From Microcaldota archaeon (GTDB lineage Archaea; Micrarchaeota; Micrarchaeia; Micrarchaeales; Micrarchaeaceae), in NCBI GenBank assembly GCA_021801905.1, contig JAKABJ010000005.1:1-35032 (forward strand): a stretch of DNA of 35,032 bases, given 5' to 3'. The notes under the pieces were generated by a model. The model had not been told where the DNA came from. It did no database searches and worked only from the letters and a program-made list of their open reading frames with translations. Shown piece after piece: positions 3,882-31,363 of this stretch; the stretch's first letter is position 1, and each line of letters opens with the position of its first letter. The position numbers and the translations under genes were made by a program.

Positions 3882-5846
3882 GTGATTTTTTTGGAAAATG
3901 AAAGCAATACGGCTAATGCAAAAGAGCATATGGATGAACTTTTTGGAAAGATAGAGGACATGCTGCCAAAAGAGGCGGGTTTCGTAAAAGCAGAGTTCGA
4001 AGGCCCTGATATAATCATATATGTCAAAAACATAAGGGTAGTTTATTCTGACGATACTGTGATTAGGGGCATAGCATCATCTATAAAGAAAAAACTTATT
4101 ATAAGGAGCGATGAGAGCTCTTTGATGCCTCCTGAGAAATGCAAACCCATTATTGAAGGCATAATTCCGGCAGAGGCTGTAATTGCAGGAATGAGGTTCA
4201 TGCCGCGTTTCTCAGAGGTCTATGTGGAGGCGATGAAGCCTGGCCTTGTAATAGGAAAAGGCGGAGCAACCCTAAAGAGAATTGCAATGGAAACCGGATG
4301 GACGCCAAAGGTCCTGAGGACTCCTACAATGAGCAGCGAGGTAATATCTGGAGTGCGCCAGCTTATGTTTAATGAGGAAGATTTCAGGAAAAAGTTTCTA
4401 ACAAAGGTGGGCAAGGACATCAATAGGGTTTTGGCCAAGAGCGACTGGCTAAAGACTACTGCATTGGGGGGCTACAGGGAGGTTGGAAGAAGCAGCCTTC
4501 TTATTGAAACCAGGGGGTCAAAAGTAATAATTGACTGCGGAATAAGCCCAGAACCTGCAGCAAGGGGTGCGGATGCAAACAACGGGGCCGAAAACAAGGC
4601 ATTTCCATACCTTGACAGCGCAAACATCTCAATAAATGAGCTTGATGCTGTAATAATAACGCACGCCCACATGGACCATATGGGCTTTATCCCATATCTT
4701 TTCAAATACGGGTATGAAGGTCCTGTATACTGCACACCTCCTACAAGAGATCTTGCAGCCTTGCTTCTCAAGGACTATGTCAAGCTAATCCAGCGCGGAG
4801 GCGGCACGCCGCTTTACGACGAGAAAGACGTAAGGAAGACCCTCATGCATATGATAACTAGGGATTATGGAGAGGTCACAAATATAACCGATGAGATAAA
4901 GCTTACATACCATAATGCGGGCCATATACTCGGAAGCGGGACTGTCCACCTGCACGTTGGTGAGGGGATGTACAATGTTGTACATACTGGCGACATGAAA
5001 TACGGCTTTACAAGGCTCTTGGACCCTGCAGAGGTAAAATATCCAAGGATTGATTCCCTTTTTATAGAAAGCACATACGGTGGCAGCAACGATATAAATC
5101 TAAACAGAAGGGACGCCGAAGCGCAGCTTATGAACATAATAAAAAGGACAACAAGCAACAATGGAAAAGTCCTGATACCTGTTTTCTCTGTGGGCAGAAG
5201 CCAGGAGATGCAGTTAGTGCTAGAAAGCAACATGACCTCAGAAGGGCCATATAAGAGCGACGCACCCGTATTATTGGATGGCATGATACTAGAGGCAAGC
5301 GCGATACACACCGCATATCCAGAATACCTGAAAGAGGGGATAAAGAACAGGATACTCAATAACAGGTCTCCATTTGAGAGCGAGATATTTGAGGTAATAA
5401 AAGGGGAGAGGGAAGAGACCGCAGACAAGGGTCCAGCAGTAATATTAGCTAGTGGAGGTATGATGAACGGAGGGGCAAGCGTAGAGCATTTCAGAATGCT
5501 CGCCGAAGACCCAAGAAACGCCATAGTCTTTGTTGGCTTCAACAGCGCAAATTCGCTCGGAAGAAGGCTTCAGAACGGACTCAAGGAGGTCGTCCTTCCA
5601 GATGAAGACGGAAAGCTCACCCCGATAAAAGTGCAGATGTCTGTTCATACTGTTGATGGGTTCTCGGGGCATAGCGACAGAAGGCAGCTTCTTAATTTCG
5701 TAGAGAACCTCAGGCCAAAGCCCAAGAGCATATTCACTATGCATGGAGAGGAATCAAAATGCGAAGACCTTGCAAGGTCTCTATCAAGGATAATGCATGT
5801 TGATGCAAGGGCGCCGATGAATCTTGACACGATAAGGCTTAAGTAG
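3882..5846 (+). CDS. aCPSF1/FttA: KH, metallo-beta-lactamase, beta-CASP ribonuclease
   Basis: Archaeal CPSF73 homologue. In this family the enzyme cleaves nascent RNA downstream of U-rich sequence and terminates transcription together with Spt4/5. Seen: N-terminal KH-like domains (about 1-180, with GLVIGKGGATLKRI as the GxxG loop), then a metallo-beta-lactamase core with HAHMDH at 261-266, later zinc ligands in HNAGHILGSG and HTGDMKYG, a beta-CASP insertion (PVFSVGRSQEMQ onward) and C-terminal HTVDGFSGHSD plus TMHGEE ligands. The 654 residues match the family. GTG at 3882 is the start giving the complete KH region; no clear GGTG is upstream. Termination factor partner Spt5 is encoded at 13973-14431. 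Confidence 0.95.
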   Translation: MIFLENESNTANAKEHMDELFGKIEDMLPKEAGFVKAEFEGPDIIIYVKNIRVVYSDDTVIRGIASSIKKKLIIRSDESSLMPPEKCKPIIEGIIPAEAVIAGMRFMPRFSEVYVEAMKPGLVIGKGGATLKRIAMETGWTPKVLRTPTMSSEVISGVRQLMFNEEDFRKKFLTKVGKDINRVLAKSDWLKTTALGGYREVGRSSLLIETRGSKVIIDCGISPEPAARGADANNGAENKAFPYLDSANISINELDAVIITHAHMDHMGFIPYLFKYGYEGPVYCTPPTRDLAALLLKDYVKLIQRGGGTPLYDEKDVRKTLMHMITRDYGEVTNITDEIKLTYHNAGHILGSGTVHLHVGEGMYNVVHTGDMKYGFTRLLDPAEVKYPRIDSLFIESTYGGSNDINLNRRDAEAQLMNIIKRTTSNNGKVLIPVFSVGRSQEMQLVLESNMTSEGPYKSDAPVLLDGMILEASAIHTAYPEYLKEGIKNRILNNRSPFESEIFEVIKGEREETADKGPAVILASGGMMNGGASVEHFRMLAEDPRNAIVFVGFNSANSLGRRLQNGLKEVVLPDEDGKLTPIKVQMSVHTVDGFSGHSDRRQLLNFVENLRPKPKSIFTMHGEESKCEDLARSLSRIMHVDARAPMNLDTIRLK

Positions 5847-7352: not shown

Positions 7353-9188
7353 CTACTTTTCTACCTTGTAATCTGCGTCTGTTGCACCAGGTTCGCCGTT
7401 GTCTCCTCCCTGCTGGCTGTCTCCTCCTTCATTTCCTTTTCCGAAATCCTTGTAAATGCTTGAGCCTATCTCCTGCAGCGTTTTGGAAAGCTCCTCTGAT
7501 TTTCTTTTTATTTCAGATATGTCTTCGCCTTTCAGGGCATTCTTAAGCTCCTCCTTTGAGCTGTTTATTTTTTCATAAACCTCTTTAGGAATCTTGTCCT
7601 TGTATTCCTCCAAGGTCTTCTCTGTGGTGTAGACTAGGGACTCGCCCGAATTCTTTGTCTCAACCTGCTCCTTTAAGCGCAAGTCCTGCTCCTCGAATTT
7701 CTGGGCATCCTTTATCTTGTTTTCTATATCGTCGCTGCTCATTTTATTCGGTGCGATTATGTCCATGCCCTGCGCCTTTCCGGTTGCTTTGTCCTTTGCT
7801 GTTACATGAAGTATTCCGTTTGCGTCTATGTCGAAAGTCACCTCTATCTGCGGCACTCCCCTTCTCGCAGGAGGTATACCTGTAAGGGTAAACCTTCCAA
7901 GCTGCACATTATCTTTTGCCATGGCGCGCTCTCCCTGGACTATCACAATGTCTACACTTGTCTGACTGTCTTCTGCTGTGGAGAATATCTGCGACTTCTT
8001 TATAGGTATTGTTGTATTCCTTTCTATTATCTTTGTAGCTATGCCTCCCAATGTCTCTATGCTGAGAGACAAAGGAGTGACATCAAGCAGGACTATGTCT
8101 TTTACCTCTCCAGTCATTACCCCCGCCTGAACTGCAGCTCCAAGCGCCACGGCTTCCATAGGGTCTACTCCCCTCTCTATTTTTTTGCCAATAAGCTGCT
8201 CAACGTACCTCTGCACAATCGGCATCCTTGTAGGCCCTCCTATGAGTATTATCTTGTCAAGGCCGCTCGGCTCCAATTTTGCATCCTTCATTGCCTGCAT
8301 TACGGACTTTGCCGACCTTTCAATTATCGGAACAACAAGGGATTCCAGTTTCGCCCTTGTGAAAGTGTATGTGAAATTTATTGGATTGCCTTTCTGGTCC
8401 TTTGATATGAAAGGAAGGTTTATCTCAGTGTTTAGAGTAGTTGAAAGCTCTATCTTTGCCCGCTCACCGCTTTCCCTAAGCCTTTGCATGGCCTGATGGT
8501 CTTTTGTTATGTCTATTCCATACTGCGTTTTTATTTCGTTGGTCAGCATCTCCACTATTGAATTATCCATATCTGTGCCTCCCAGTTGGGTATCTCCGCT
8601 TGTAGAGAGAACTTCAAAGACCCCTTTTCCGAATTCCATTATCGTTACGTCAAGGGTTCCGCCTCCGAGGTCGTATACCATTATCTTCATGTCTTTTCCG
8701 CTTTTGTCTACTCCATATGCTAGAGCTGCGGCAGTTGGCTCGTTCACAAGCCTGACCACTTCCAAACCTGCAATCTGCCCGGCATCTTTTGTGGCCTGCC
8801 TTTGATTGTCATTAAAATAGGCAGGAACAGTGATAACCGCCTTCGTTACCTCCTCACCAAGGAAAGCTTCTGCATCTTTCTTTATTTTCTGGAGAAGCAT
8901 TGCAGAGAGTTCCTGCGGGCTATACTCCTTGCCAAATATCTTGTATTTATAACCAGTTCCCATCTTCCTTTTAAATGCGCTTATTGTTCCATCAGGATTT
9001 GCAACCGCCTGCCTTCTTGCCGGCTCTCCGATAAGTCTCTGGCCATCCTTTGTTATGGCAACATAGCTAGGAAATGCCTTTCCATATAAGGTTGTCCCTT
9101 CGCTGCTCGGTATTATGACAGGCCTGCCTCCCTCAAGTACTGCTGCAGCAGAATTCGAAGTTCCTAAATCTATTCCTATTATTTTCAT
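7353..9188 (-). CDS. dnaK: Chaperone DnaK (Hsp70)
   Basis: ATP-dependent protein-folding chaperone. Seen: N-terminal ATPase signature [11 protein letters not shown], phosphate-2 motif [13 protein letters not shown], adenosine motif [10 protein letters not shown], linker [16 protein letters not shown], a beta-sandwich substrate domain and a helical lid ending in a Gly/Asp/Gln-rich tail with DADYKVE. The start is set at ATG 9188: GGTG at 9198-9195 lies six bases upstream, and the longer TTG start at 9200 would overlap this site. The linker and bacterial-like lid fit the bacterial DnaK type that cooperates with GrpE. Third gene of the operon. Confidence 0.97.
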
Positions 9189-9218
9189 GTTTTTCACCAA
9201 AATATAATTTAAATCAAA

Positions 9219-10972: not shown

Positions 10973-11044
10973 TGGGTCTGGGGAGAATTGAACTCCCGAT
11001 CTTCACCTTGTGAAGGTGACGTCTTACCATTCGACTACAGACCC
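10973..11044 (-). tRNA. tRNA-Val (anticodon CAC)
   Basis: The minus strand folds as a full cloverleaf: acceptor GGGTCTG/CAGACCC, D arm GTC...GAC, anticodon stem TCACC/GGTGA around loop TTCACAA, T arm GGGAG/CTCCC with loop TTCAATT, and discriminator A at 10973. Loop positions 34-36 read CAC, which decodes GUG (Val). CCA is not encoded and no intron is seen. Confidence 0.95.
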
Positions 11045-11107: not shown

Positions 11108-11641
11108 ATGAATTTATATACGGGAAAGGGTGATCTCGGAGAAACAGATACCCTCGGGCGAGGCAGGATCTCAAAGGATTCTCCAATAGCTGGACTTCTT
11201 GGAGATATAGACGAATTGGTAAGCAGCATTGGTTTGGCAATATCCTTCATAGGGCAAGAGGATCTTACAGACTTATTATCAGAACTGCAAAATAAATTAT
11301 TTAAGGTAAGTGCGGACGTTGTTTCATCTTCAAGCAAAAAGGTAAAAAATATAGATAAGAAGGATGTGGAGTGGCTTGAGAAAGAAACTGATAAGATTTC
11401 TGAGGGTTTGCCAAAAACTAAAAAATTTGTGCTGCCGGGACGCAGCCAAGAGTCTGCGCTGCTCCACGTCTCAAGGGCCATAGCAAGACGCGCCGAGAGG
11501 TCTGCTGTAGCTGCTTCAAAATCATATGAGATATCACCGGAAGTGCTTGCATTTATGAACAGGACATCATCCTTCCTGTTTGCGTGCGCTTTGCTGGCAA
11601 ATAAAAATAAGGGGAAGGATGAAAAAAACCCTTCTTATTAA
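11108..11641 (+). CDS. Cob(I)alamin adenosyltransferase, PduO type
   Basis: ATP:cob(I)alamin adenosyltransferase, which makes adenosylcobalamin. Seen: the N-terminal ATP motif YTGKGDLGETDTLGRGRISKD (4-24), GDIDEL at 32-37, and the signature FVLPGRSQESALLHVSRAIARRAERS (107-132) of the trimeric PduO family. The 177 residues are normal. No cobalamin-dependent enzyme or transporter is in the window, so salvage of external cobinamide/cobalamin is inferred. ATG 11108 is the first start after the tRNA promoter region. The gene converges with scpB and their stop codons overlap. Confidence 0.88.
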   Translation: MNLYTGKGDLGETDTLGRGRISKDSPIAGLLGDIDELVSSIGLAISFIGQEDLTDLLSELQNKLFKVSADVVSSSSKKVKNIDKKDVEWLEKETDKISEGLPKTKKFVLPGRSQESALLHVSRAIARRAERSAVAASKSYEISPEVLAFMNRTSSFLFACALLANKNKGKDEKNPSY

Positions 11642-12144
11642 GCCGCGCCTGTTCCTGTAAGGTTAAAGTACTCCTTGAATTTCTGTGTAGTCTCAAGCCT
11701 TTTACTCCTTCCCTCCCTCTGCGCTTTTATAAAATCATTATCTGTAAGCTCTTTTACATATATGTATGTGGTGCTTCCAAAAGCTTTCACTATCATGCTT
11801 TGTGATATTGGCTCGTTTTTGCTTATGTATGCCAATATTTTCAAAGCCCCTTTGGATATGTCTGGCTGTCCTGCCAGGGCGCTCACTATCTTTCCGTACG
11901 GGTCCTTGACGCTCATTACATACTTATCCCCAATCTTCAGTATGCACAAAGAATTTCTGCTTGATTTTGAGTTTTCCACCATCTGGTCAAGTATTTTCTT
12001 TACGTATCCTATTGATGCGATTCCCACTATGCCAGCAAGTTCATCAGCAGACATCGCCCTGCCAGAAACAAATAAAGCAGCCTCCAGGATGTTCTCCTTT
12101 TCATTAGCTTCAGGATACTCGCTCTTTTCTTCCAATCTTTTCAC
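11638..12144 (-). CDS. scpB: Segregation and condensation protein B (ScpB)
   Basis: Winged-helix subunit of the SMC-ScpA-ScpB condensin. Seen: two winged-helix domains (about 15-90 and 95-160), with ENILEAALFVSGRAMSADELAGIVG at the start and GALKILAYISKNEPISQSMIVKAFGSTTYIYVKELTDNDFI as the conserved core. Start is GTG 12144 or TTG 12135; GGTG sits six bases before the TTG and overlaps the GTG, favouring TTG. It overlaps scpA by 35 bases, so translation is likely coupled. No smc gene lies in the window. Confidence 0.88.
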   Translation of the reverse strand: MKRLEEKSEYPEANEKENILEAALFVSGRAMSADELAGIVGIASIGYVKKILDQMVENSKSSRNSLCILKIGDKYVMSVKDPYGKIVSALAGQPDISKGALKILAYISKNEPISQSMIVKAFGSTTYIYVKELTDNDFIKAQREGRSKRLETTQKFKEYFNLTGTGAA

Positions 12145-12901: not shown

Positions 12902-13936
12902 TTATCCTTTATTCAAGCGCAAATCCAGGACAACCTCTATTTCACTATGAGAATAATCCCTAACTTTCCTCCATTTGAGCAGTTTAAGCTTTCCGGAATC
13001 GCCGAGCTCCTTCCTCAGCTTTTTCATAGCTTCCCTTGCGGGGTTATCTTTTTTAACAAACATGTAGATATGAATATTTCCCTTATCTTTCGAGATCCCG
13101 GCTGCGTGTGCAATAAAACTATGGCTGTCTTTTGGTAAAGGCATTATTATTCTATCAGCGAAATTCTCATAATGTTTTGCAACTTTTCCAACATCTCCCC
13201 ATACTGGAACAACATTCTTTAGCTTGTTAATCAGTATATTCTTTTTCATCATCTCATATGCGCTCTTGTTTAGTTCTATGGCAACAACACTGGAACGTGG
13301 GTTTTTTTTAGCTAACTCCACAGCAAAAGGCCCCACTCCTGCAAACAGTACCATTACATTTTCCTTTCCTTTTGATAGTGCAGATATCCTCTGTCGTTCA
13401 AAAGAAAGCCTAACAGAGAAAAAAGTCTTCCTGACATCAAAGACAAACCTGCATCCATTCTCTATCATGTCGGCAACGTATGTTCTTTTTCCTGCAACGT
13501 AGCTGAGTTTTCTTATTCTGTATCTGCCTGATACCGGTCCCGCCTTTGCAAGGACCGTAGTTATCCTTTTTGACGAGCTCATTATTTCCTCAGAGTATCT
13601 TTTTGCTGCTCTAGATGAAGGATTATCAGTTTCTACAATGGCAATGTTACCAAGTATGTCGTATCCTTTGGCTACCTCTTTGTTCCTGTTTATTTTGCTC
13701 TTCGCATTGCCCTGCGCTCTCCCCTTTTTCTCAATAAGCATTCCCCCATTTTGTCTGATAAGCTTTTTAATGGTTGCAGTTGCAATAGTAACTGGAAATA
13801 GAACATAGCTGTCGCTATGCAGGACATCTGCATTATTTGCCAATAGGTTATTTTTGGCCAATGCGTCCCTTAGCTTCTCGGCATGTTTTTTCTGCACTTT
13901 TGCGTAATGCATATAAGCATCTACAAAAATTGACAA
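12902..13936 (-). CDS. trm5: tRNA (guanine37-N1)-methyltransferase Trm5
   Basis: Methylates G37 next to the anticodon to prevent frameshifting. Seen: an N-terminal D1-like region, the family core YDILGNIAIVE (about 92-102), KLSYVAGKRTYVADMIENGCRFVFDVRKTFFSVRLSFERQRI, the AdoMet loop VLFAGVGPFAVELA and MPLPKDSHSF, which aligns with the NLP/MPLP motif of archaeal Trm5 enzymes. The length of 344 is typical. The start is uncertain: TTG 13936 gives the full N-terminus, while ATG 13912 would remove eight residues. Divergent from spt5 with 36 bases between them, so their promoters overlap. Confidence 0.9.
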   Translation of the reverse strand: MSIFVDAYMHYAKVQKKHAEKLRDALAKNNLLANNADVLHSDSYVLFPVTIATATIKKLIRQNGGMLIEKKGRAQGNAKSKINRNKEVAKGYDILGNIAIVETDNPSSRAAKRYSEEIMSSSKRITTVLAKAGPVSGRYRIRKLSYVAGKRTYVADMIENGCRFVFDVRKTFFSVRLSFERQRISALSKGKENVMVLFAGVGPFAVELAKKNPRSSVVAIELNKSAYEMMKKNILINKLKNVVPVWGDVGKVAKHYENFADRIIMPLPKDSHSFIAHAAGISKDKGNIHIYMFVKKDNPAREAMKKLRKELGDSGKLKLLKWRKVRDYSHSEIEVVLDLRLNKG

Positions 13937-15195: not shown

Positions 15196-16317
15196 ATGTC
15201 GGAGAGTAAAATACGTCAGGTTGCTGAAAGAGATAATACAGTTACCGATGTGGAGTTTAAAACCTATGTAAAAACACTTATAGTCGAAAGCATAAACCCT
15301 ACGATAAATGAATTTCTTAAACAGATAGATGCGAATGGTATCGAAAATTTAATAGGAACAAGCAAGTATCAGACAGCATCGAATGCGACAGATAACGGCA
15401 TAGCCAAACCTGCAAATTATTTAATGAATATGGGGGGAAATAGACATAGACCAGTGCTGATGCTCACATTGATTGAAGCACTCGGAGGAGACCGAGTACG
15501 ATTTTTACCATTCTCTATCATACCAGAAATGATTCATAATGCTACGTTGGTGCATGATGATATAGAAGATAATTCATCTATGAGAAGAGACAAAGAGGCA
15601 GTACATGTAAAGTTTGGATTACCTCTTGCAAACAACCTTGGCGATTTCATGTATTATTTTCCTATCGATGCAGTGCTTGAAAAAAACCGTTTGCCTCCTG
15701 AAAAAGAAATCGAAATTGTAAGAATATATCGCAAGAATATGTTAAGGGCAACGGTTGGACAATCGTTTGACCTCACTTGGGGCGAAGGCAGAGTAAAAGC
15801 ATTTGAAATAAGTGAAAGCGAATACTTAAGAATGGTTGAATTGAAGAGCGGTGCTTTGCTTAGAATGGCTGCTGAACTGGCAGGAGTTTTGAGCAATGCG
15901 GATCAGGAAACTATAGATGTGTTAGGCAGAGCGTGTATGGCAATCGGGGTTACATTCCAAATAATAGATGACATAGAGAATCTGAAACCGAGCGAAATTG
16001 CAAGCAAGAAAGGAGGAATTGGCGAAGATATAACAGGAGGGAAGATCACTGTTATGGTCATACATGCATTAAAAGTGGCAAACGATGCAGATAAAGAAAG
16101 ACTTCTTGCAATTCTTGAAGAGCATACAAAAGATAGTACAAAGATAAATGAAGCTATAGCAATAATGGAGAAATATGGTTCGTTCACTTATTCAAGAACT
16201 CTTGCTGAGCAGATAGCGGACGATGCTTGGAATGAATTGGACAAAACTCTTCCATACTCTATAGCAAAAGAGAGGATAAGAACTATGATAAGAGTACTAT
16301 TACACAGAACAAGTTAA
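15196..16317 (+). CDS. Polyprenyl synthase (isoprenyl diphosphate synthase)
   Basis: Trans-isoprenyl diphosphate synthase making GGPP or longer chains for archaeal lipids. Seen: GGNRHRP at 80-86 (usual GGKRxRP, Lys replaced by Asn), first Asp-rich motif DDIED at 121-125 followed by RR, KSGALLRMA, and second motif FQIIDDIEN near 255-262, where the last Asp of DDxxD is Asn. The length of 373 is above the usual 290-340 because of a long N-terminus. Both changes affect Mg/diphosphate binding motifs, so it may be a specialised paralogue or need a partner. ATG 15196 follows an AT-rich promoter. It lies inside the inverted-repeat-bounded block and is more AT-rich than the neighbouring housekeeping genes. 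Confidence 0.88.
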   Translation: MSESKIRQVAERDNTVTDVEFKTYVKTLIVESINPTINEFLKQIDANGIENLIGTSKYQTASNATDNGIAKPANYLMNMGGNRHRPVLMLTLIEALGGDRVRFLPFSIIPEMIHNATLVHDDIEDNSSMRRDKEAVHVKFGLPLANNLGDFMYYFPIDAVLEKNRLPPEKEIEIVRIYRKNMLRATVGQSFDLTWGEGRVKAFEISESEYLRMVELKSGALLRMAAELAGVLSNADQETIDVLGRACMAIGVTFQIIDDIENLKPSEIASKKGGIGEDITGGKITVMVIHALKVANDADKERLLAILEEHTKDSTKINEAIAIMEKYGSFTYSRTLAEQIADDAWNELDKTLPYSIAKERIRTMIRVLLHRTS

Positions 16318-19261: not shown

Positions 19262-19915
19262 TCATTTTCTAAGATAAATTTTATTTTTTTCCACATACCT
19301 CAGCATTGTCTCAATAGAGTTATTTAGCTGGATGTTTCCGTATATCCTCTCTATCGTATTCATTATCCTCAGTACCTTTCTCTCCAAAGCGATTGGAGCA
19401 TCCTCTACATACATAAATATCGCTTTGTCTTCCTCCAAGGTCCCGGTCTTTATAATCCCAAAAGCGTCAGCATATTTGGGATCATTGATAACTTTAACTG
19501 CAATTCCTCTTGCTTTAGAGAATTTTCTATTGGCGGAGTATGTGGATTCTCCAGAAGTTGGAAGCAGTATGCTACTTGCGTCAAAGCACTTTTCTGCGTC
19601 ATATTCGTGCACCACTCTCTGCGCCTGCCCCAAAACCTTCACAACGCACGCCCCCATCTCGAGCCTTAAAAGCTCCCTGCTTAATTTTACTCCATTTGGG
19701 TGGATGACAGAAACCCAATAAAATTGCCCGAGGATCTTTCTAAATCCAATCCCATTGTCATTTTTAGGCAGCTTCATCATGAAATCATCAGAGGCACCGG
19801 TCTTTTCTTCAAATAATCTAAATTCTACCCTGGAACCTTTCGGGATCTGTTCGATGCTTACAAGCTTTTCGCTCTCCTCGTTATGAGGGGTTATAAAAGA
19901 TTTTGTTGCGCGCAT
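19262..19915 (-). CDS. Hypothetical protein (217 aa), paired with HExxH protein
   Basis: Not recognised. A soluble, mixed alpha/beta protein with no membrane segment; the N-terminal half is beta-rich (GSRVEFRLFEEKTG, FYWVSVIHPNGVKLSRELLRLEMGACVVKVLG), the C-terminal end helical. It begins four bases after the stop of the HExxH gene, with AGTG five bases before ATG 19915, so the two are translated from one message. Its role is probably tied to that protein. Confidence 0.65.
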   Translation of the reverse strand: MRATKSFITPHNEESEKLVSIEQIPKGSRVEFRLFEEKTGASDDFMMKLPKNDNGIGFRKILGQFYWVSVIHPNGVKLSRELLRLEMGACVVKVLGQAQRVVHEYDAEKCFDASSILLPTSGESTYSANRKFSKARGIAVKVINDPKYADAFGIIKTGTLEEDKAIFMYVEDAPIALERKVLRIMNTIERIYGNIQLNNSIETMLRYVEKNKIYLRK

Positions 19916-19919
19916 TTTA

Positions 19920-20798
19920 TCACTCTTTTCCTAAATAGGCCCATATGTAATGCATAAAATCATCGACGCGTTCTAATCTCGCAAAAATACCCTCTCCCCT
20001 GATATGCGCCATGGACATCCCAATTCCTTCCAAAGCCTTCTCAGACCGATCAACAAGCGCCTTTACTTCTATATCGTATCCGATCTCCTTCTCAACCAAG
20101 CCACGCTCATCAGGCTCCTTTCTGAGCACGCATTGCATCCTCTTAGCTGCAAGCTTTTCCATAGAATAAGCCACTGGATCCTTTTCAGTCTCTTCCCCAA
20201 TCTCTATAGCGAGCCTAATAATGTAGTCCATGCTCTCAAGGGTGTCAACTATCGTTGGCAGCTTAACCAAAATTCCAGGCCTAATGTCTTTCCCTATTCT
20301 AACTATGCTTAATTCCACAAGTTGACTCTGTATAACCGAAAGGGCCGCATCTATTAGCGTGTTCGCTATTGATGCATTATCATCAGAAATGTTTGCAAAT
20401 GCTGCATATGCGATGCATCCTACGATCCTGGCAACTCCCTCTTCGGCATGCCTTGCCTCTCCTGGTGCGGTATTGAGCGTTGATAGGCAGGCATGTGCTG
20501 ATTCGTGGGCCACAGTCTCCATAACCTCACTAAGGCTTCTGTTTCTTCCAGAGTATATAATCATCTCAGGAACTGGCAACTTTTTATATAGGCCCTCGTA
20601 ATACATGTTCATGAATCCTTCGGCTGAAACTGGGACTGAAGAATGGGTAATCTTTGGAGGTTTCGTTCCCTCTGCATTTAGCCTCTTTGCCACCCATCTA
20701 AATGTGCCCAGGTACAAGTCTTCAGATATGAATGTCTCTCGTCCCGCCTCGAAATCAATCCTTTCCTTTGCCAAAGGCTCTTGTTTTGCTACAACCAC
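19920..20798 (-). CDS. Putative zinc metallopeptidase (HExxH)
   Basis: A 292-residue protein with HESAH at 98-102 in a helix (LSEVMETVAHESAHACL), followed 17 residues later by EE at 119-120 in a second helix (HAEEGVARIVGCIAYAAFA), the order used by gluzincin-type zinc peptidases (HExxH plus Glu). The rest is helical, with no signal peptide or membrane segment, so it would act in the cytoplasm. The exact family is not recognised. GTG 20798 has its own TATA-like TATTAAATAA at about 20840-20831. It is followed at four bases by the 217-residue partner, and the large phosphoesterase gene lies just upstream on the same strand. Confidence 0.65.
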   Translation of the reverse strand: MVVAKQEPLAKERIDFEAGRETFISEDLYLGTFRWVAKRLNAEGTKPPKITHSSVPVSAEGFMNMYYEGLYKKLPVPEMIIYSGRNRSLSEVMETVAHESAHACLSTLNTAPGEARHAEEGVARIVGCIAYAAFANISDDNASIANTLIDAALSVIQSQLVELSIVRIGKDIRPGILVKLPTIVDTLESMDYIIRLAIEIGEETEKDPVAYSMEKLAAKRMQCVLRKEPDERGLVEKEIGYDIEVKALVDRSEKALEGIGMSMAHIRGEGIFARLERVDDFMHYIWAYLGKE

Positions 20799-20894: not shown

Positions 20895-23783
20895 TCAATA
20901 GGCAACCAGCCTTCTTGGAAGCACATCTATCTTATGCTGTTCGCTCTCAAATCCAGCTATGAGTGGGTTAATTTTCAGGCAGCCCTCCTTAATCAGGAAG
21001 TCAACGCTTACGAATGTGTCTGCTGCTGACAGTATCTTGCCCCCGTTTTCATATTCAAGCACAAAGATTGAGACCCCGCGAAGCGAGTCTGTAGTTGGTA
21101 TTCCTATAACGTCAGGATGCCCTGTATTGCCCTGAAGAGCAATGCCTTCAAAGACAGCAACCAATTTATTCTGCACGCCCATTATCGTCTTCCTATGCCT
21201 GTGCCTGTCCCCTCCAATCGCAACCGTTGCTTTTGGCATAAGCCTCTCTATAGTGTTGGCTTCGGTCCTATGCCCAACGGAGATATGAAGCCCAAGCCCA
21301 ATCTCAAACTCTCCATATCCTCCGTGCCTTCCGCCATATACCCGTCTTATTTTATCTCTTATTGGGTTCGGAGCCATTCCCATTATTCTCTGCGAAAGCT
21401 CTCCGGACTCTGTAACATCCCCTCCTGGGAAGGTTCCGTTTGCATGATTGCCATCTGTGATTATTATTCCCTTTACAATTTTGCTCTGCACAAGGGGCTT
21501 TATTGCCTCTACAAATAGGTCGGCCTGAGTGTTCAAGCTTGCTATCGGGCTCTTATAGTATAGCCATTCCCTGTATTTTCCCATATTCTCTTCATACTCA
21601 TCGCTATATTTCCTGATCCCTTTTTTAACAAGATAATCTCCGAAAGCAAATTCATTGTTCAGGTCGTTCTCTTTATTTACCCGATTCTTGAAGCTTCCAA
21701 GGTTGCCTTCTATGTTGTCTCCGTCGAGAACGAGCACAGCCTTCTCCTTCACATTATCCTGTATCCATCTTACCATTCTGTCAAACACTATCCTGTTCGG
21801 ATACCCCTCTCCTGGACTTCCGAAATGTACGTCGGTTATATCAATGAATGTGATCCTGTTGAACTTCTCGCTGTTTCCGCTTAAAGAGAGTTTGCTCCCA
21901 ACCCATTTCATAAGCTTGTCTTCCGGTCCGGCCTCGTTAAATTCCTGCCTGAGTATTTTTGATGCTGCATTTAATACCTCCTTTCTATTTTTCCTATCTA
22001 CTTCAAAATCATCAAGAAGCCTGGCAAATTTGCTCTTCTCAGTTATTTCGCTAGGCAGCTTGTTTCTGAATTGCAGCATATCCCTCGCATCAAGGAGCTC
22101 CTTTGAGCTATTGTAGTTGCATGAACCGGCTACCATTTTGGCTAGCACACGCGCCTGAGCACGCTTCTCCCTGTCTGAGAATATTGCTAACTTTTCAGAA
22201 GATATGAAGAGGTTGGTGGCTCTTCCGTTGCATATATCTATCTCGTTTAGCCCTGATGCCGGACTTCCTTTGGTGAGCATTTCGGTAAACCAGGTCTTTC
22301 TGCCCCTTGCATGCTCCTCCACAAGCTTCTGGACATTTATGCATGGAGGCGCAACATCAGTAAAGAATATTCTTTCGCCGCGGTTGGATTTTGGAAGCGG
22401 TTCGTCCATGCCTCTTGGGCTGCCCGAGAGCAGGATTATGTCCGCATCCTTTTCGAGAGTGCGGAGCATCTGCCTGACCTTGTAACTACTGTCTTTTATA
22501 AAATGCTGTGAGGTATTGTCCCCCTTTGTTCCAATAACGACGTTCAATCCATTTATCTGCAAATATGAGCGGTTACCTGTTGTTATCTCTATATGCATCC
22601 TTCTTCCAAAAACGTCTTTTATGCTGCTTTCTATTATGAGCCTTGAGAGCTGGCTCTCTATCCTAGTCTGGCTTGGAGTCCCAGCTTCCAACCCTGTAAA
22701 CCTTCTCTCACGCGACAGCCTCTCTTCCGCAGCCCGTTCAGAAAGGCTCCTTTCATCAGCAATCATCATGTGCGAAAGTTTTGTAAGCTTGTTTGCAAGC
22801 TCCTTCGCGCGAGTCTCAAGCCTGGATTGCTTTTCACCGCTTTTCCCTCCCATCTTAGATATCTGCTTCTTCACACTGTTGAATTCGCTCTCTGTAATCT
22901 CCCTCAGCTCCTGGATTGTGTGGCCTTCGTTGGGCTTTATAAGATTTATAATCTCCCAATCAACATATTCCTCCCCGAAGGCTTCAAAAACCTCGTCAGA
23001 ACTACGTCCCCCTATCCACATCCCCAAAAGCTTTGTATAAAGGTCCTTTATCTGCAGATTATCTGACAGCTCATCCATCAGCTGCTCTCTTTTTTTCTCA
23101 AGATAGGATAGCTTGCCAGGCAGCTTTAAGGATAATTTAGAGACTTTATTTGCAACTCCGCCATTTCCATTTCCAAGAGAATCCTTATTTTTAGCAATAT
23201 TTTCAATCTCATTCTTTATATGCCCGATCTCTATATCTATGTTATCTATCTTACTGCCTAGGTCAGCCACTACCTGGCCATAGGTCATCCTCATCCTTGC
23301 CAGATGTTTTGGATTATGGTTAAAAGCTTCTCCAAGGGCTTCGTATTCCGCTTTCTCATTCTGGTCGTCATTATACCCCCAAACATATGCAACCTTGGTT
23401 TTTGAATTGCTCTTTTTTATGAGTTCGGTTATCCTGCTTAGATGCGGCTTCATCATAACCGTTGCCTGGTCTAGGTCTTCAACTTCATCCGCAATCAGCA
23501 GGTTTCTGGCCCTGTAGCTTTTTGTTCCGTATTTTGGTATCTCTGGCAGAACCTGTCTAAATACGATTAGGTCTGGAGCCATGTTCTGTGATATCCTGTC
23601 TTTTAGAAGAGAATATATACCGAGTAAATTATCTTCGCCAAAATAAGACATTCCCCCTCCAAGTTCTCCAATATTCCAGATTCTTGTAGAGGTTTTGGTT
23701 TCTCTGGAAGCGTAGAGTGGGTCTATTGTAACGCTGCCTGCCTCTCTTCTGAGGCTATGTGATAGTTTTTCTACCCCACCCAT
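20895..23783 (-). CDS. Large double metallophosphoesterase with coiled-coil insert (962 aa)
   Basis: The C-terminal third (about 640-900) is a calcineurin-like metallophosphoesterase: TDVHFG near 650, DGDNIEGN near 685, ITDGNHANG near 777, VGHR near 836 and GGDRHRHR near 855 supply the two-metal site. The N-terminal half looks like a second copy that has lost catalysis: FGEDNLLGIYSLLKDRI, PDLIVFRQVLPEIP, VAYVWGYNDDQNE and DIILLSGSPRG align in order with the five motifs but lack their Asp/His ligands. Charged helices (about 175-245 and 285-375) insert a predicted coiled coil into that half. No membrane segment is present. A nuclease or phosphodiesterase is likely; Mre11-like DNA work is speculation. 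ATG 23783 follows GGTTAA. Confidence 0.75.
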   Translation of the reverse strand: MGGVEKLSHSLRREAGSVTIDPLYASRETKTSTRIWNIGELGGGMSYFGEDNLLGIYSLLKDRISQNMAPDLIVFRQVLPEIPKYGTKSYRARNLLIADEVEDLDQATVMMKPHLSRITELIKKSNSKTKVAYVWGYNDDQNEKAEYEALGEAFNHNPKHLARMRMTYGQVVADLGSKIDNIDIEIGHIKNEIENIAKNKDSLGNGNGGVANKVSKLSLKLPGKLSYLEKKREQLMDELSDNLQIKDLYTKLLGMWIGGRSSDEVFEAFGEEYVDWEIINLIKPNEGHTIQELREITESEFNSVKKQISKMGGKSGEKQSRLETRAKELANKLTKLSHMMIADERSLSERAAEERLSRERRFTGLEAGTPSQTRIESQLSRLIIESSIKDVFGRRMHIEITTGNRSYLQINGLNVVIGTKGDNTSQHFIKDSSYKVRQMLRTLEKDADIILLSGSPRGMDEPLPKSNRGERIFFTDVAPPCINVQKLVEEHARGRKTWFTEMLTKGSPASGLNEIDICNGRATNLFISSEKLAIFSDREKRAQARVLAKMVAGSCNYNSSKELLDARDMLQFRNKLPSEITEKSKFARLLDDFEVDRKNRKEVLNAASKILRQEFNEAGPEDKLMKWVGSKLSLSGNSEKFNRITFIDITDVHFGSPGEGYPNRIVFDRMVRWIQDNVKEKAVLVLDGDNIEGNLGSFKNRVNKENDLNNEFAFGDYLVKKGIRKYSDEYEENMGKYREWLYYKSPIASLNTQADLFVEAIKPLVQSKIVKGIIITDGNHANGTFPGGDVTESGELSQRIMGMAPNPIRDKIRRVYGGRHGGYGEFEIGLGLHISVGHRTEANTIERLMPKATVAIGGDRHRHRKTIMGVQNKLVAVFEGIALQGNTGHPDVIGIPTTDSLRGVSIFVLEYENGGKILSAADTFVSVDFLIKEGCLKINPLIAGFESEQHKIDVLPRRLVAY

Positions 23784-30368: not shown

Positions 30369-30824
30369 AATAAAGAAAGCAAATAAGGGAGGCGAAAGAA
30401 ATACTCCTAAAACAAATATAATATTAGAAATACTAATTGAATTTTAGTTTAGCATTCTTTTGTTCTATAGTGCATTTTCTTCTCTATAAGGTAAATATCT
30501 AAAAAGAAAATTATCTCACCGTATAACGCAAGCTAGGGCACATTTCCCTAGACGACAACTTTATTATTACCGGAATAAAGCTTCTTTTATGAGCGCTTTC
30601 ATATATATGATAAGTGCCATACTGTATTCCATATATATGAGCTAATAAAACGCCTCATGAGGAAATCCCTTTCTTTAAACCTCTTTTGGCCAGCAATCCC
30701 GGGGGTCTGGCTATTGGCCCAACTTTGCCATAATTCTGAAATTGATGCAAAGTAAAGATTGTTTTTTTATTTCGTTATGATGGAACATTGAATTTAAGAT
30801 GTGCTATTAAACACAATTCCATTT
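30369..30824. other. AT-rich intergenic region with palindromic direct repeats
   Basis: No intact gene is recognised. It contains a perfect 6-bp hairpin CTAGGG/CCCTAG at 30533-30551, two copies of the palindromic CATATATATGA at 30600-30610 and 30630-30640 (period exactly 30), the palindrome CCTCATGAGG at 30653-30662, and GCCAG/CTGGC at 30689-30711. These may belong to a small RNA or regulatory element. Confidence 0.4.
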
Positions 30825-31363
30825 TCATGATTTTAGCGGTTGTTTATGACTATTTTTTAATCTTAGGTAAAATATTTCCATGTACATATACAGTTTCCCA
30901 TGCTTGACAAACTTTGAGCCGAAGGCCCATCTCTTGAAGCCGAATTTCTTAAGAAGCTTTTTGGACGCAGTATTTCTAGAAAAGGTTCCAGCTGTCACAT
31001 CTAGTATTTGCCCCTCGCCATCTTTAGCAGCTGCCTGACTATAGCCGTGCCTATGCTCTTGCCTTTATAATTACAGAGAAGCCCATATCAACTACGTGCG
31101 GGGCCTCTGCCCAAGCATGCCCCTGCAATGCACTAATCCCTACCATTCTGACTGCATCATTTTCTGCAACAACTACAATGGCGTTGTGCGAAGCCGCACT
31201 TATACAGTTTTAAAAACGCCCCTTTAATGTCCTTCTTTTTAATCTTCTTGCCATAAGTCCCAATATCGAAGGCTGGATTTTCAAGGAGTTCCTTGTAATA
31301 TGATACTTCATTTTCATAGTAAGCTGCAAAATCGCTTCTTTTAAGTTTCCTAATTTTATACAT
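30825..31363 (-). pseudogene. Broken GNAT acetyltransferase
   Basis: A GNAT N-acetyltransferase can be read on the minus strand, but only by changing frame at least three times. In order: MYKIRKLKRSDFAAYYENE from ATG 31363; then, in another frame, AIVVVAENDAVRMVGISAL and EAPHVVDMGFSV; then YKGKSIGTAIVRQLLKMAR, the acetyl-CoA-binding motif region (usual QxxGxG/A; here KSIGTA); then ILDVTAGTFSRNTASKKLLKK and FGFKRWAFGSKFVKHGKLY. Each segment is stopped soon after its frame changes. GGTG lies three bases before the ATG. This is a decayed gene, unless the raw sequence has errors. Confidence 0.75.

Follow-up and report, generated by a model that had tools for sequence, protein, structure and literature searches.

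A predicted dead-plus-live double metallophosphoesterase from Micrarchaeota

The locus analysed here raises the question of whether a single archaeal chain of 962 residues holds two metallophosphoesterase (MPE) domains, the first without and the second with its metal ligands, and of what such a protein may do. The gene lies in the window, i.e., the whole stretch of 35,032 nucleotides that was analysed, which belongs to a genome of 643 kb in 30 contigs, with a completeness of 91.5%.

The gene and its C-terminal half

The open reading frame at 20895-23783 (-) begins with ATG and runs for 962 codons with no internal stops, and its GC and GC3 are similar to those of the housekeeping genes of the window. 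In comparison with the orthologue of another genome of the genus (G008), which is 80% identical, the whole gene has a dN/dS of 0.096, and purifying selection is seen on both halves (0.05-0.09). Taken alone, the 962-residue sequence has no match in NCBIfam, PHROG, PADLOC or the PDB sequences, nor in Pfam, where only sub-threshold coiled-coil noise appears. Profile searches of the order (164 genomes) and of the phylum Micrarchaeota (301 genomes) recovered 48 full-length homologues of 840-1095 residues; the alignment of the family has 46 rows, out of which all of the conservation counts below are given. A profile search of the PDB finds only coiled coils and weak MPE matches.

AlphaFold2, run with the same alignment, gave a model of the whole protein with a pTM of 0.85 and a pLDDT of 86.5, and of residues 26-556 (the N-terminal half) alone with a pTM of 0.81. 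Foldseek searches of the full model against the PDB returned MPEs, including SbcD, Mre11, Vps29 and chains of the polymerase zeta/delta B-subunits; the 5'-nucleotidase 2z1a (E 2.8e-4), Rv0805, purple acid phosphatases and LpxH are among the best matches. The best viral structures matched (BFVD) include MPEs of the "DNA polymerase II small subunit" type (E 1e-6).

The gene and the features of its C-terminal half are as follows:

20895-23783 (-): putative tandem pseudo-MPE/MPE gene, 962 aa (open reading frame, homologues, dN/dS)
20979-21869 (-): predicted catalytic MPE, C-terminal, residues 639-935 (motifs, invariant residues, Pfam Metallophos, DP1 profile)
21816-21839 (-): motif I, ITDVHFGS, with D651 and H653 (DVH 651-653), by conservation
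21702-21728 (-): motif II, LDGDNIEGN, with D689 (GDN 688-690), by conservation
21432-21458 (-): motif III, TDGNHANGT, with N779 and H780 (GNH 778-780), by conservation
21264-21281 (-): motif IV, SVGHRT, with H838, by conservation
21195-21218 (-): motif V, IGGDRHRH, with D859 replacing the usual H, and H861 (GDRH 858-861), by conservation

A preliminary description of this DNA had read five calcineurin-like motifs in the C-terminal part, and all five are real: DxH, GDxx, GNH, H and GHxH are present in this order, almost all of the 46 relatives retain the ligands, and the sole departure from the classical GHxH is D859. Residues D651, Q753, G778, H780, E792, H838 and H861 are invariant, and H653 (45/46), D689 (45/46) and N779 (43/46) are nearly so. 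By motif order, the conserved positions match the ligands seen in the crystal structure of DP1, which are D363, H365, D407, N453, H500, H563 and H565 (PMC4996933). The position equivalent to H563 is 859, occupied by H in 34 of the 46 members and by D in 12, these being the window protein and 11 relatives. Given that Asp is able to bind metal, D859 need not abolish the putative enzyme. This substitution, and the presence of Vps29 and polymerase zeta/delta B-subunit chains among the structural matches, would suit a non-catalytic scaffold similar to these proteins, in which both halves serve protein-protein contacts, but conservation of seven ligand positions and of the GNH histidine extends over two deep clades, unlike in the N-terminal half, and such a scaffold is considered very improbable.

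In the C-terminal half, Pfam Metallophos matches 28 of the 46 members (best E 2e-11), with the window protein itself below detection; among PHROG families, "DNA repair exonuclease" gives the best match (19/46, best 3e-11), and weaker matches are found to the phosphodiesterase YaeI (17/46) and to LpxG (9/46). The profile of this half aligns with the DP1 proteins of the same genomes over the whole MPE domain (E 2.7e-6, probability 88) and with their Mre11 proteins at E 3.5e-4 (probability 37), in both cases against thin comparison profiles of 7 and 4 sequences, respectively. On the evidence of these profiles, the presumed live half is nearer to DP1, which is the exonuclease subunit of PolD, than to Mre11.

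The N-terminal half, its helical insert and the linker

The features that precede the catalytic domain in the chain are the following:

23358-23696 (-): putative pseudo-MPE, N-terminal, first part, residues 30-142, b1-a1-b2-a-a-b3 (AlphaFold2, conservation, dN/dS)
22128-22676 (-): putative pseudo-MPE, N-terminal, second part, residues 370-552, with the order of its AlphaFold2 elements matching b4-b11 of the C-terminal half
23649-23672 (-): degenerate motif I, IGELGGGM, residues 38-45, E40 equivalent to D651 and G42 to H653
23541-23567 (-): degenerate motif II, IVFRQVLPE, residues 73-81, where NGGxLPxIP, the consensus of the family, is equivalent to GDxxEG
23358-23387 (-): degenerate motif III, YVWGYNDDQN, residues 133-142, family GxxDxxN equivalent to GNH
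22521-22544 (-): degenerate motif IV, NVVIGTKG, residues 414-421, with a histidine in 9/46 at position 419
22410-22436 (-): degenerate motif V, ILLSGSPRG, residues 450-458, with a histidine in 21/46 at position 454
22677-23357 (-): helical insert, residues 143-369 (DSSP of the AlphaFold2 model)
21870-22127 (-): inter-domain linker, residues 553-638, with a near-invariant KLPSEI (P577, S578, E579)

Once the insert of 227 residues is removed, the secondary structure elements of the two halves follow the same order one to one in the AlphaFold2 models. The pairs (N-/C-terminal residues) are b1 32-40/642-650, a1 50-65/663-677, b2 72-76/682-686 and b3 130-134/770-776 before the insert, followed by b4 398-401/812-815, b5 406-410/821-828, b6 413-417/832-837 and a helix at 433-441/842-848, and finally by b7 449-452/854-857, b8 458-464/864-870, b9 472-477/873-879, b10 511-518/903-911 and b11 521-528/917-926. 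The alignment of these elements scores 171, while shuffled elements have a mean of 89 (sd 21) and a maximum of 133, with none of the 300 shuffles as high.

Comparisons between profiles of the two halves point in the same direction, with a strength that depends on the members included. With all 46 members the match is weak (probability 7-43), one of 120 shuffles being as good, and motifs I and II fall in register, as do all five motifs if the alignment is forced to full length. With the 21 members that have H454, the match covers 239 columns at E 2.2e-5 (probability 76), and its score of 40.9 exceeds the block-shuffle maximum of 31.2 (0/200 as high), although this subset was selected on a single alignment column and the comparison of all members stayed weak.

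An unrelated alpha/beta domain that resembles an MPE by chance might account for the behaviour of the N-terminal half in direct searches, given that Pfam Metallophos matches only 3 of the 46 N-terminal halves (best E 0.027) and that Foldseek against the PDB, with this half alone, gives zero matches at E <= 0.001, the non-significant ones being a mixture of MPEs (YydB, SMPDL3B, Mre11), helical bundles and BAR domains. Against a chance likeness stand the shared order of the elements, the full-length collinear profile match to the C-terminal half with its motifs in register, and the vestigial histidines that divergent members retain in motifs I, IV and V, so that this reading is hardly probable. 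A degenerate MPE domain at the N-terminus, and with it a dead-plus-live double MPE, is well supported by the profiles and the predicted models. The N-terminal MPE without metal ligands that the preliminary description had proposed is upheld by the order of the elements, by the homology to the C-terminal half and by the loss of most ligand equivalents; the structural search that it had suggested finds MPEs with the full model and gives no significant match with the N-terminal half alone.

The equivalents of the ligands in the window protein are E40, G42, Q77, Y137/N138, T419 and G454, among which hardly any residue other than E40 could act as a ligand. Across the family, position 40 is D or E in 36 of the 46 members, 42 is H in 5, 77 is G in 28, and 137/138 have no N or H pattern, which means that the D/E of motif I is the only ligand generally kept. 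Several relatives retain H42, H419 or H454. The loss of the ligands looks gradual, since the pair of homologues found in other families of the class each have histidines at positions 419 and 454, to which one of the two adds E-x-H at motif I. This would be a clear pseudo-enzyme fused to a live sister, and the half-lost ligands of the relatives would make the path from live to dead readable from the sequence.

The first part of the N-terminal half carries a signature of its own (NGGxLPxIP, KPHxxR and YVxGxxDxxN); its residues P70, P80, P83, R117, Y133, D139 and N142 are near-invariant, R117 being invariant, and its dN/dS of 0.051 is the lowest of all regions of the protein. Judged by these patterns, the N-terminal half is dead as a metal site, yet is not decaying.

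The insert lies between motif III and b4, and has a family median of 195 residues (range 122-250). The long charged helices that had been noticed from the sequence are recovered in the AlphaFold2 model at 137-156, 158-202, 208-257, 290-310 and 316-363, each of about 20 to 50 residues, and four of them pair into two hairpins (158-202/208-257 and 290-310/316-363). A hydrophobic period of 3.5 residues runs through the first hairpin, and most of the other parts are without it. The coiled coil proposed earlier is retained in part: in the model, the insert is a bundle of helices that partly resembles a coiled coil and falls far short of the length of a Rad50 arm. The linker, apart from its KLPSEI stretch, is the least constrained region of the protein (dN/dS 0.27 against the G008 orthologue).

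Distribution and history of the family

The family is present in 45 of the 164 genomes of the order, with two copies in one of them, and in two genomes from other families of the class. Micrarchaeota genomes are very small, yet about a quarter of the order keeps this protein of 900-1000 residues. Two additional weak matches in the order are DP1 genes, identified by NCBIfam in the case of L098 and by alignment with L098 in that of L099. Both halves occur together in all 48 full-length members, a point that the preliminary description had proposed to check, and neither half was found standing alone in the searched Micrarchaeota genomes, barring a truncated gene in G076. This fragment (L143, 3803-4204 (-), contig G076:C24) has 159 residues and covers only the first part of the N-terminal half (approximately the first 150 codons), with a stop inside the helical insert. 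Since almost 4 kb of the sequence beyond it do not contain the remainder of the gene, the fragment is taken as a decayed or misassembled gene. The two copies in a single genome (G044) are divergent; they lie on different contigs (L060 and L061) and branch apart in the tree.

The presence of the family is patchy, for example in only 2 of the 9 genomes of the genus of the window, and in the tree of the catalytic half each of the two deep clades contains a mixture of families f1 and f2. This patchiness and the mixed tree would fit either transfer or an old paralogy with loss. No named family in Pfam or NCBIfam covers the 962-residue protein, and searches of the open-access literature found no paper describing such a tandem, with only one passing mention, which agrees with the earlier statement that the architecture had not been described. 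The family appears to be an MPE family not previously named, with a retained pseudo-enzyme half.

A viral origin was rejected, as no relative was found in viral contigs and phage genomes have no close sequence match (best E 0.2). Membership of a defence system was also discarded, the PADLOC matches being inconsistent and the scattered ones resembling coiled-coil noise.

Possible functions and related systems

The reading that is somewhat favoured is a tandem derived from two MPE domains, in which the live half would be a DP1/Mre11-type phosphodiesterase acting on nucleic acid and the dead half its internal partner. The two domains would have been joined by duplication or fusion, with the C-terminal one retaining a two-metal site, in which the metals would activate a water molecule while the histidine of GNH donates a proton to the leaving oxygen, leading to 3'-5' exonuclease or endonuclease action on what is presumably a nucleic acid. 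The N-terminal domain would have lost its ligands and kept its fold, gaining conserved residues of its own and the bundle between motifs III and IV, and would probably position the substrate or dock another protein, by analogy with the dead B-subunits of eukaryotic polymerases. If the dead half does steer the live one, the protein would be a single-chain parallel to these inactive subunits. The dead and the live half have similarly low dN/dS.

A nucleic-acid substrate is a first guess, made because of the matches to the DP1 profile, to the PHROG "DNA repair exonuclease" and to phage MPEs annotated as DP1. The fold by itself leaves the substrate unfixed, as the matches to YaeI/LpxG, 5'-nucleotidase, Rv0805 and purple acid phosphatase show. 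These same matches (2z1a, Rv0805, purple acid phosphatases and LpxH among the structures, YaeI and LpxG among the weak sequence matches) would accommodate an identical architecture in which the live half acts on a nucleotide, a cyclic nucleotide, a lipid head group or a phosphoprotein and the dead half is regulatory or serves for docking. However, matches across the superfamily are expected of any MPE, and the best at the level of sequence are to nuclease-type MPEs (DP1 and the PHROG exonuclease); this alternative is possible, though rather unlikely.

As for the DP1/Mre11-type reading, the closest comparison is with DP1, which shares with the C-terminal half the two-metal motifs SDxH, GDxxDG, GNH and GHxH, the two-metal site here being predicted. 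On the other hand, the tandem protein has a helical insert, combines a dead and a live MPE in one chain, and is without an OB domain, as none was found before the C-terminal MPE, where AlphaFold2 places the N-terminal MPE, the helical bundle and the linker helices. One family member matches the NCBIfam DP1 model, at E 2e-4 only, and a separate DP1 of 502 residues, above the NCBIfam cut-off, is encoded in the same genome. Eukaryotic polymerase B-subunits are inactive relatives of DP1, and the tandem protein recalls them in that a dead MPE is paired with catalysis located elsewhere.

With Mre11/SbcD, the C-terminal half shares the MPE nuclease fold. In the Mre11 dimer two MPE units face each other, an arrangement that the tandem protein could mimic internally, but the profile match of its C-terminal half is weaker, and it has neither a Rad50-type ATPase nor a zinc hook. 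The likeness to Mre11 plus a coiled coil drawn in the preliminary description is loose, in that the bundle is short, the live half is nearer to DP1, and the genome encodes Mre11, Rad50 and DP1 separately. The self-contained nuclease with a clamp proposed there might take the form of one ATPase-free chain that grips and cuts nucleic acid, with the dead MPE and the bundle standing in for the clamp and the second protomer of an Mre11-like dimer; this is a doubtful proposal, and to our knowledge no such single-chain, ATPase-free device is known from any organism. A replacement of Mre11-Rad50 is rejected, given that a Rad50 zinc-hook gene, which in this genome lies on a different contig (C8), is present in 144 of the 164 genomes of the order, this one included, and that this genome has its own Mre11, Rad50 and DP1 apart from the tandem gene. 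The Mre11 of this genome (L126, 1501-2709 of G000:C9) has GTH instead of GNH at motif III, as does that of the other three genomes inspected (L127, L131 and L132).

In PHROG and among viral structures, the live half is best matched by phage proteins annotated as "DNA repair exonuclease" or calcineurin-like (PHROG 7339 and 1649, and those of BFVD), which are much shorter, at about 260-510 residues among the best matches. A common plan of two modules of the same fold, one of them dead and yet retained, is found in DNA polymerase epsilon, in which one chain carries two polymerase-exonuclease modules, of which one is active and the other inactivated (PMC2669801). The fold is unrelated, and the live module, which is C-terminal in the tandem protein, is N-terminal in the polymerase (PMC7308368).

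Among the loci examined, no conserved neighbour ties the family to DNA or RNA processing and no conserved operon partner was found, as the neighbours are housekeeping or unnamed genes and neighbourhoods are common only to close relatives. In the window and in G008, the MPE gene is followed on the same strand by two unnamed genes of 292 and 217 residues. The first (19920-20798 (-), with the G008 counterpart L021 at 11170-12045) adjoins the MPE gene downstream and encodes an HExxH motif (AHESAHA...EEGVAR) of zincin-like appearance, without a Pfam family; the second lies next to it at 19262-19915. Homologues of the 292-residue gene are found in 2 of the 9 genomes of the genus, exactly those with the MPE gene, a co-occurrence that, with two genomes, is a hint and not a link.

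In two genera (g14 and g34), an unnamed protein of 190-225 residues with a possible PD-(D/E)xK-like stretch (FRPDFI...LEPHG) follows the MPE gene, directly downstream and on the same strand at L069, L070, L072, L064 and L091, and 2.3 kb downstream at L086. Elsewhere in the window, approximately 1 kb (30369-31355) is without an open reading frame of at least 80 residues and without an Rfam match. The other genes of the window include an FttA-type transcription termination factor (3882-5846 (+)) with KH, beta-CASP and RMMBL domains, an HSP70 (7353-9200), a tRNA-Val (10973-11044), a TRM5/TYW2-type methyltransferase (12902-13936) and a polyprenyl synthetase (15196-16317).
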